Notes under the pieces: model-generated
The model's input: the letters and a program-made list of their open reading frames with translations, nothing else
Database searches by the model: none
Told to the model about the DNA's origin: nothing
Assembly (NCBI RefSeq): GCF_036323475.1
Contig: NZ_AP028934.1
Coordinates: 1,116,001-1,180,000 of the forward strand
Source: Solobacterium moorei
Lineage (GTDB): Bacteria; Bacillota_I; Bacilli_A; Erysipelotrichales; Erysipelotrichaceae
Direction: 5' to 3'
Length of the DNA: 64,000 bases
In this document: positions 15,716 through 18,079 of the stretch, in pieces
Numbering within the stretch: position 1 is the first letter of the stretch
Layout: each line of letters opens with the position of its first letter
Made by a program: the position numbers and the translations under genes

Positions 15716-16978
15716 GTGACAGATAAACAGATTTATGCGGCAATTGAGGCTGCTGACCATGAGGTTCGATTAGTAATTGGTGAGTTTTTCAACACCAGAT
15801 TTAATATTATAAAGGTTGAAAGAGTACCATGTAGCGGACTCTCTTATAATGGCATTACAGACCAACAGGCTTTGATTGGTTCCATCAAACAGGCAATAGC
15901 GTCTGCAAAGAAGATGGTTGGTGCTAGTGTACAACAGGTAATTCTTGCAATTCCTGCATTTAATTTAAAGCGTATTTCTTTGAAATCAACAGTTGATATT
16001 GAAGGTATCGATGGAACTGTAACGATACAAGACGTACGTAATGCAATCAAGAAAGCGGAAGCAGTAAATATTGGCAATGATAGTGCTTTGATTCAGACGG
16101 TATGTGTAAAGTATACGGTCAATGGTATGACAACACGCCGTATTCCACTTGGAGAAAAGTGCTCTCAGTTGATTGTTGATATTGACTTATTGTGTGCAGA
16201 TCGTAAATTTGCCTATGACTTAGTAACTTGTGTAGAAAAAGCAGGTCTAAAAGTAATGGATATCTTTGCGGATATCTATGCTGTAGGGAAAGAGGCTGCT
16301 CTATTTGAACAGTCCGTTGATCGCCAAGTGATTGTCTTAAAGGTAGAACGTGATGCAACGACATTAGGTCTACTCTATAAGGGAAGATTTGCGGCATCTA
16401 CAATCTTACCAATGGGACTTGGAAATATCGCAAATGCAGCTGTCGAAAAATATGGCATTAATATGAAGAATGCTATTGAGTTAATCAAGTATAGTGCAAG
16501 ACTTGATCAGACAGTTTGTTCCTCAAATATTATCCATATTTGGAACGATAATGGTGAAAATAGAACCATCAGTGAGCAGGAGTTAGTAGACTGTATTCGC
16601 CCTAATATTGAAACATGGTTGAATGCAATTACAGAAACTTGCGAAGGAATCTTGCAAGCAGGTGAAACAACTGTTATTATTACTGGTGAAGGTGGCGAAA
16701 CTATAGGTTTAGAAAACCTTTTAAGCAAGCGCCTAAATGTAGAAGTTAGAGATTATATTCCGGAAACATTAGGGGGAAGAAATGCAGCATTAACCGCATG
16801 TCTCGGATTGTTCTATGCCTACCAAGATAGATTACCTATTATCGGTCAGACTGAAAACAGCTTAGATCTTGATGCTTTTATCAAAAACGTATCCTACCGT
16901 GATAGAAAGGTAGAGACTACGAAAGAAGATACCTTGACAAATAAACTCAAGGGATTGTTTCTCGATGGAAAGAAATAA
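15716..16978 (+). CDS. ftsA: Cell division protein FtsA, divergent
   Basis: A 420-residue actin-like protein placed 18 bases before ftsZ, which it should tether to the membrane. The start is a GTG with AAAGGAG upstream. The overall fold pattern is that of FtsA: 1A/1C subdomains, the KYGINMKNAIELIKYSA helix region at about 245-261, ITGEGG at 322-327. It ends in an amphipathic helix (LTNKLKGLFLDGKK) typical of the membrane-targeting sequence. However, phosphate-1, normally DIGTSS-like, reads IEAADHEV (10-17), and phosphate-2, normally DxGGGTTD, reads KVERDATT (209-216). ATP binding is therefore doubtful. Family identity rests on position, length and the C-terminus. Confidence 0.82.
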   Translation: MTDKQIYAAIEAADHEVRLVIGEFFNTRFNIIKVERVPCSGLSYNGITDQQALIGSIKQAIASAKKMVGASVQQVILAIPAFNLKRISLKSTVDIEGIDGTVTIQDVRNAIKKAEAVNIGNDSALIQTVCVKYTVNGMTTRRIPLGEKCSQLIVDIDLLCADRKFAYDLVTCVEKAGLKVMDIFADIYAVGKEAALFEQSVDRQVIVLKVERDATTLGLLYKGRFAASTILPMGLGNIANAAVEKYGINMKNAIELIKYSARLDQTVCSSNIIHIWNDNGENRTISEQELVDCIRPNIETWLNAITETCEGILQAGETTVIITGEGGETIGLENLLSKRLNVEVRDYIPETLGGRNAALTACLGLFYAYQDRLPIIGQTENSLDLDAFIKNVSYRDRKVETTKEDTLTNKLKGLFLDGKK

Positions 16979-16996: not shown

Positions 16997-18079
16997 ATGG
17001 CAGAATTAACTTACAACCAGGTAGCAAAAATCAAGGTATTTGGTGTCGGCGGAGCAGGTAGCAACGCTGTAAACCGCATGGTACAGGAAGGCGTTCAGGG
17101 TGTTGAATTCTATATCGCTAATACTGATCTTCAGGCAATGGATATTTCTCCAGTTGCAAATAAGATTCAGTTAGGTAAAGAAGGTCTTGGCGCTGGTGGT
17201 AACCCAGACAACGGACGCAAGGCAGCTGTAGAAAGCGAAGACGCAATCCGTAAATCTATGGAAGGTGCCGACATGGTATTCCTTACAGCAGGTATGGGTG
17301 GCGGAACTGGTACAGGTGCAGCCCCATTATTCGCAAAGATTGCTAAGGAACTTGGATGCTTAACAGTAGGTATCGTTACTAAGCCATTCAATTTCGAAGG
17401 TAAGAGAAGAGAAAGAAATGCTGAACAGGGTCTTGAACAGCTCAAGGAATATGTAGACTCATTAATCATCATTTCTAATAATAAAGTGTTAGAAGTAATC
17501 GGACATATTCCATTCCAGGATGCGTTTAAAGAAGCAGACAATATCTTACGTCAAGGCGTACAGACAATTACTGACTTGATTGCTGTTCCTGCAATGATTA
17601 ACTTGGACTTCGCGGACATTAAGAGTGTTATGGAGGGTCAAGGTTCCGCATTATTCGGTATTGGTATGGCTGATGGCGATGACAAGGCTAGAGAAGCTGC
17701 AGCACGCGCTATTCAATCTCCATTACTAGAAGCACAGATTGCTGGTGCGAAGAGTGCTATCATTAACGTTACTGGTGGTACAAGCATGTCCGCATTTGAT
17801 GCATCTGAAGCTGTTGACTTCATCCGTGAAGCAGCTGGTAATGATATCGATATCATCTTCGGTGTAGCTATTAACGACAAGATTGGCGATGCAATTATCG
17901 TTTCTGTTATCGCTACAGGTTTCGAGTTGTCTGAACCTAAGAAGGAAGAAGAAAAGAAGGCTGCTCCTTCCACAAAGCCAGCGAGTGGTGTTTCATTACA
18001 GAATGATGACTCTGCTGTATTTGGCTCTTCAACTTCTGATGCAAGCGACAGTATTCCTGGTTTCTTTAGAAGAGGTTAA
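16997..18079 (+). CDS. ftsZ: Cell division protein FtsZ
   Basis: A 360-residue tubulin-like GTPase that forms the division ring. The tubulin signature GGGTGTGAAP and the T7 loop region NLDFADIKSVM are intact, so GTPase activity at the subunit interface is expected. After a short linker of about 40 residues, the C-terminal peptide DSIPGFFRRG matches the conserved tail that binds FtsA, SepF or ZapA-type partners. GGAGAGG precedes the ATG. Codon usage here is richer in common codons than in neighbouring genes, as expected for an abundant protein. Confidence 0.97.
   Translation: MAELTYNQVAKIKVFGVGGAGSNAVNRMVQEGVQGVEFYIANTDLQAMDISPVANKIQLGKEGLGAGGNPDNGRKAAVESEDAIRKSMEGADMVFLTAGMGGGTGTGAAPLFAKIAKELGCLTVGIVTKPFNFEGKRRERNAEQGLEQLKEYVDSLIIISNNKVLEVIGHIPFQDAFKEADNILRQGVQTITDLIAVPAMINLDFADIKSVMEGQGSALFGIGMADGDDKAREAAARAIQSPLLEAQIAGAKSAIINVTGGTSMSAFDASEAVDFIREAAGNDIDIIFGVAINDKIGDAIIVSVIATGFELSEPKKEEEKKAAPSTKPASGVSLQNDDSAVFGSSTSDASDSIPGFFRRG

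Follow-up and report, generated by a model that had tools for sequence, protein, structure and literature searches.

The ftsA locus and the identity of its product

The gene ftsA, in a 64,000-nucleotide stretch of the Solobacterium moorei genome (contig NZ_AP028934.1; the whole stretch is called the window here), encodes a protein that has the fold and the genomic setting of FtsA, but in which all three of the nucleotide motifs of canonical FtsA are replaced. The genome is a single contig of 2.6 Mb, and its closest named relatives are Erysipelotrichaceae and Solobacterium metagenome-assembled genomes, Lactimicrobium massiliense, Anaerorhabdus furcosa and Holdemania. An earlier note on the window had put the gene in the FtsA place before ftsZ and had credited its product with FtsA length, and both observations hold, since ftsZ follows closely on the same strand (Table 1) and the open frame has the size of canonical FtsA. 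An FtsZ match was present at 109 of the 110 ftsA loci that were examined with their flanks.

Table 1. Positions in the window of ftsA, ftsZ and the features of their products
Feature	Position	Strand	Description
ftsA	15716..16978	+	420 aa, GTG start; FtsA fold, nucleotide site replaced
Phosphate-1 position, residues 10-17, IEAADHEV	15743..15766	+	Canonical L-D/E-I-G-T/S-x-x-V; from alignments and hairpin tip
1C (SHS2) subdomain, residues 87-157	15974..16186	+	FtsA-specific; Pfam SHS2_FTSA 35 bits, above cut-off
Phosphate-2 position, residues 209-216, KVERDATT	16340..16363	+	Canonical D-I-G-x-x-x-T; from alignments and hairpin tip
Adenosine-loop position, residues 322-327, ITGEGG	16679..16696	+	Canonical xTGGxx; from alignments
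C-terminal helix, residues 407-416	16934..16963	+	Probable membrane-targeting segment TxKLKxxL/F; helical in the predicted structure
ftsZ	16997..18079	+	Next gene, 18 bp after ftsA; TIGR00065 399.8 bits, above cut-off
FtsZ C-terminal tail DSIPGFFRRG	18047..18076	+	Read from sequence

The assignment of the protein to FtsA can be examined through the traits that define the family. The 1C (SHS2) subdomain is present in place of 1B on the actin fold, and the gene stands beside ftsZ; the phosphate-1, phosphate-2 and adenosine motifs are absent, with EAAD, KVERDAT and TGEG in their positions instead. The curated model TIGR01174 (ftsA) matches residues 10-354 with E=1.6e-34 and 119.6 bits, which is below its cut-off of 175.85, while a member of the sister family, the other family of the order, reaches 193 bits; the Pfam FtsA domain likewise scores 16.8 against a cut-off of 31.8. 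Many FtsA proteins of the Erysipelotrichaceae fall under the curated cut-offs in the same way, so automatic annotation misses, down-scores or mislabels the gene across the family. Models of other actin-like families fit no better, as the MPN316 family NF045748 gives 31.5 bits (E=1e-7) against a cut-off of 500 bits, the PilM model TIGR01175 gives 24 bits against 133, and the Pfam model MreB_Mbl does not match the protein.

An AlphaFold2 (AF2) model of the protein, built with an alignment of 102 sequences, has a mean predicted local distance difference test score (pLDDT) of 93, and its best 19 matches in the PDB are all FtsA. The top matches are Staphylococcus aureus FtsA structures, including an ATP-bound one, with template modelling (TM) scores of 0.79 by query and 0.87 by target, and a sister-family FtsA that has its motifs intact yields a closely similar ranking. 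Set against canonical FtsA (TIGR01174; the Escherichia coli, Thermotoga maritima and S. aureus structures 7q6d, 4a2b and 3wqu), the protein is alike in its whole-length fold, its 1C/SHS2 subdomain and its size, and shares the adjacent ftsZ and a predicted C-terminal helix; it differs in the three nucleotide motifs and in its Pfam score. The window protein is thus a genuine FtsA, and it is the single FtsA of this Erysipelotrichaceae bacterium: a search of the whole genome returned one FtsA-like gene, and the idea of a second FtsA with intact motifs was dropped when none was found.

The FtsZ C-terminal tail is the peptide normally bound by FtsA, and its (I/V)PxFF form is retained in other members of the Erysipelotrichaceae. 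At the other end of the presumed tether, the C-terminal helix that the earlier note had described as amphipathic is indeed predicted, and T408, K410 and K412 are within the 50 most conserved columns of the family alignment, but the amphipathic character is weak in the window protein itself; its helical moment is ordinary, being equalled by 27% of shuffles, and the moment by itself was set aside as proof of a membrane helix. Because ftsA adjoins ftsZ, the fold is that of FtsA, and both the C-terminal segment and the FtsZ tail are conserved, the protein very probably works as a membrane tether for FtsZ.

Replacement of the nucleotide motifs in the protein and the family

The motif positions were located by three independent routes, among them profile alignments and the hairpins of the predicted structure, and these confirm the phosphate-1 and phosphate-2 readings of the earlier note. 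Profile alignment to solved FtsA sets IEAADHEV over SIDIGSSSV of S. aureus and LEIGTAKV of E. coli, and sets LKVERDATTL over IDIGEDVTQV and VDIGGGTMDI, so that K209 of the window protein aligns with D210 of E. coli FtsA. The AF2 model has two hairpins, made up of strands 5-12/16-25 and 204-210/215-221; their tips, A13-D14-H15 and E211-A214, are the phosphate loops, and the replaced motifs occupy these tips and the helix start that lines the ATP cleft of FtsA. The changes are from D/E-I-G-T/S to E-A-A-D at phosphate-1, from D-I-G to K-V-E at phosphate-2 and from TGG to TGE in the adenosine loop. The references for the canonical state were E. coli K-12 FtsA and the PDB, since a phylum-level baseline search at a strict threshold returned sequences of the same class only. 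These references also correct the earlier note in two respects: the glutamate at phosphate-1, where an aspartate had been expected, is not a loss, because E. coli FtsA has E14 there, and D-x-G-G-G-T is the wrong yardstick for phosphate-2 in Firmicutes, because S. aureus FtsA, which has been solved with ATP, reads DIGEDVTQ, relative to which the window protein has lost the remaining D and G. Intact phosphate-binding residues elsewhere in the sequence would have contradicted the earlier note, but a scan of all 420 residues found no other D-x-G-T/S/G, and the possibility of a relocated phosphate motif was rejected.

To place the window protein in its family, 97 FtsA sequences from 55 genera of Erysipelotrichaceae were compared with those of 20 genera of the sister family. 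An FtsA homologue was found in 277 of the 295 genomes of the order; two genomes of 98-99% stated completeness (G041 and G062) yielded no match to FtsA, SepF, FtsZ or DnaK, and were treated as unreadable rather than as lacking the gene. The phosphate-1 glycine is absent from 94 of the 96 readable Erysipelotrichaceae sequences, mostly in favour of A, S or T, and the following residue, canonically S/T, is D/E in 88 of 96. At phosphate-2 the glycine has become E in 72 of 97 sequences, and most members carry K, N or R instead of the aspartate. In the adenosine loop, 81 of 97 sequences have E/D for the second glycine, so that the adenosine motif, which the earlier note took to be partly kept, does retain its outer glycines but is less intact than was claimed. 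In the sister family (probably Coprobacillaceae, a name deduced here), whose FtsA is 20-27% identical and also adjoins ftsZ at the loci that have flanks, 20 of 20 genera retain the phosphate-1 D, G and S as well as the adenosine glycines, in the forms LDIGSATxKL and VGGGGE, and phosphate-2 is kept as DIGYxxST. Absence and replacement of the canonical motifs throughout the family can be regarded as virtually certain, and the earlier suggestion of a lineage-wide feature is borne out across the 55 genera with one genus excepted. That genus, g21 (loci L283 and L284; two species with FtsA 53% identical), retains LDIGSY, N-(L/I)-G and GGGG and, together with one isolated sequence, accounts for the exceptions to the phosphate-1 glycine loss. 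With all three motifs kept inside the Erysipelotrichaceae, it forms a natural control.

The replacement is itself conserved. The family consensus at phosphate-1 is (L)EIADHEVR, and few parts of the protein are conserved as strongly as E-I-A-D-H-E-V-R: the segment of residues 10-19 lies in the top 2.6% by conservation among segments of its length, and E16 and R18 are each more than 90% conserved. Conservation of the phosphate-2 segment is no more than average, so the key new element is the phosphate-1 hairpin. Ratios of nonsynonymous to synonymous substitution rates (dN/dS) of 0.009-0.136 in eight FtsA pairs, taken together with this conservation, argue for replacement rather than decay. An artefact of misalignment, frameshift, assembly error or pseudogene formation could be suspected from the low scores given by the automatic family models, but it is practically out of the question: the 420-residue frame is open, the same motif occurs in about 95 independent genomes as well as in several isolates (Holdemania massiliensis, Anaerorhabdus furcosa and Lactimicrobium massiliense carry it), the predicted fold is confident and the adjoining ftsZ is intact. 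DnaK of the same genome has intact GIDLGTTNS and YDLGGGTFDVS, so there is no problem of sequence quality or genetic code; this control, the purifying selection and the breadth across genomes led to the rejection of a pseudogene or assembly error.

Two further observations concern the partners of FtsA and its relatives in the cell. A tryptophan is found at residue 301 of FtsA in 78 of 96 family members, a position at which others have I/L/M, and the (I/V)PxFF tail of FtsZ in the Erysipelotrichaceae compares with VPAFLR in a sister-family example; the two variants are possibly a coevolved contact. A search of the window genome for MreB gave DnaK as the sole match to the MreB_Mbl model (a 613-residue frame; locus L148), and because no MreB was obtained, an FtsA without nucleotide motifs may be the only actin-type cytoskeletal protein of this genome. 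The genes of the window run in the order rlmN, PP2C-type phosphatase, PASTA kinase, rsgA, rpe and thiamine pyrophosphokinase, then divergent rpmB, ftsA and ftsZ, where all names except the last two were read off the sequence alone.

Function of the replaced pocket

The composition of the pocket bears directly on whether ATP can be held there. Over 20 pocket-loop positions, the mean numbers of acidic residues and glycines are 6.0 and 2.6 in the Erysipelotrichaceae and 3.1 and 5.9 in the sister family, and the corresponding counts are 3 and 6 in E. coli and 4 and 4 in S. aureus. Since the loops carry twice the acidic residues of the sister family and fewer than half of its glycines, binding of ATP phosphates is unlikely, and to judge from these residues the replaced pocket probably does not bind ATP. 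In 76 of 96 sequences residue 14 is acidic and the phosphate-2 loop also contains a basic residue, a pairing that suggests an internal salt bridge in place of ATP-Mg; that such a bridge is the reason for the conservation is a tentative proposal. The E. coli substitutions E14R and D210A, at the equivalent site, abolish function (PMC10213515), so the mode of action of the window protein cannot be that of E. coli FtsA.

The reading that we consider quite probable is that this FtsA tethers FtsZ and has a fixed internal acidic/arginine structure in place of its ATP site. Under this proposal the site would have been exchanged for a fixed core composed of E-I-A-D-H-E-V-R at phosphate-1, E-R at phosphate-2 and G-E-G in the adenosine loop, and the pocket would no longer bind ATP-Mg. 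Salt bridges of E11, D14, E16, E211 and E325 with R18/R212 would lock the two actin lobes in one conformation; FtsA would tether FtsZ and recruit the divisome constitutively, through the FtsZ tail, self-association and the membrane helix, and the dynamics would come from GTP hydrolysis by FtsZ instead of an ATP cycle of FtsA. Because the parts that hold ATP have been replaced in a conserved manner, FtsA here probably works without an ATP cycle. ATP-pocket defects of E. coli FtsA are reportedly bypassable by changes at the dimer interface, to go by the title of work by Herricks et al. in 2014 (cited in PMC5508204). Several points weigh against the proposal: the putative salt-bridged core is read from charges, the AF2 model resembles the ATP-bound conformation (towards which AF2 tends regardless), and some ligand could still sit in the pocket because G324, G326 and T215 are highly conserved. 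The loss or replacement of nucleotide control put forward in the earlier note is well supported by the sequence, the acidic phosphate loops, the strong purifying selection and the loss of E. coli FtsA function on D210A; the interpretation in that note as a whole was judged partly supported.

The conserved residues, G324 at 96%, G326 at 92%, T215 at 86% and E11 at 84%, also lend weight to the possibility that non-canonical binding of ATP or some other nucleotide persists at the site, by way of E11, the adenosine-loop glycines, R212/R18 and an altered geometry, and that FtsA still cycles. S. aureus FtsA binds ATP without a GGG run in its phosphate-2 loop, and E. coli FtsA(E14R) still bound ATP in vitro (PMC10213515), from which it follows that single changes need not abolish binding. 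In the Erysipelotrichaceae, however, three motifs are altered jointly, and towards acidic side chains at the contacts with the anionic phosphates, while the phosphate-1 glycine and phosphate-2 aspartate are lost to the extent given above; non-canonical binding is therefore considered unlikely. In known FtsA structures the phosphate loops are located far down in the inter-lobe cleft, and a conversion of this cleft into a site for a different ligand or partner, such as a small molecule or another divisome protein bound by EIADHEVR, would agree with a replacement conserved far above the protein average, which fits a functional site better than a filled hole; there is no candidate ligand, a conserved buried core is the simpler reading, and such a conversion seems improbable. 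More improbable still is that FtsA is degenerating because SepF, an alternative tether that is encoded in the window genome, has taken over and made nucleotide control dispensable. The dN/dS values are far under 1 and the replacement motif is strictly conserved. Among 196 genomes in the order SepF was detected in 188, and it is just as common in the sister family, where the motifs are kept, whereas none of the 13 genomes searched of family f8, whose FtsA mostly lacks the phosphate-1 glycine, gave a SepF match. The presence of SepF thus fails to predict motif loss, and its takeover is disfavoured as a cause.

Evolutionary setting and significance

The preferred reading, an exchange of the ATP site for a fixed core, can be set in the history of the class. 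Genus g21 branches first in a quick FtsA tree, while a more careful tree leaves its placement near the family base unsettled and is compatible with a single clade of motif-lost forms (approximately unbiased test, p=0.45). The ATP site would have been replaced in one event or a few, close to the root of the family. In the rest of the class (families f5-f19), the phosphate-1 glycine is kept in f12, f13, f7 and f9, and is wholly or mostly lost in f8, f10, f19 and TGA-reading f5 genomes; on the FtsA tree, parsimony requires four changes. FtsA of f8 and f19 keeps the phosphate-2 glycine, within an intact D-x-G in the f8 genomes (for example G300, G404 and G504). Since phosphate-1 losses occur in several families, the FtsA nucleotide site has been relaxed repeatedly in these Firmicutes; of such losses in the class, the Erysipelotrichaceae form shows the greatest uniformity and is one of the most complete.

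Outside the family, the nearest parallels differ in their details. The Mollicute FtsA-like families (MPN316 and MAG3720) are weakly similar, and two f5 genomes with in-frame TGA, Spiroplasma-like by inference (loci L185 and L186), show the same kind of loss on a long branch, with phosphate-1 LEIKNYSF and adenosine GEI; these Mollicute proteins form a separate tree branch with other replacement residues and without the conserved EIADHEVR. Some eukaryotic actin-related proteins keep the actin fold with a non-functional nucleotide site, but they have a different function and are paralogues beside true actins, whereas in the present case the change is in the cell's sole FtsA.

No paper on motif replacement in Erysipelotrichaceae FtsA was found in the open-access literature that was searched, outside which most subscription journals lie. 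The role of ATP in FtsA is disputed, because little or no ATPase activity is seen in the hands of many groups (PMC6450608), and pocket mutants of E. coli FtsA nonetheless fail (PMC10213515). A family of gut bacteria with motif-less FtsA, whose close relatives keep the motifs, offers a direct comparison on this question, and if the proposal is true, the motif-intact genus inside the same family supplies a natural before-and-after pair. The balance of the evidence leans towards the view that nearly the whole of the Erysipelotrichaceae divides with a constitutively “on” FtsA that has no nucleotide cycle and is held by a conserved salt-bridged core.
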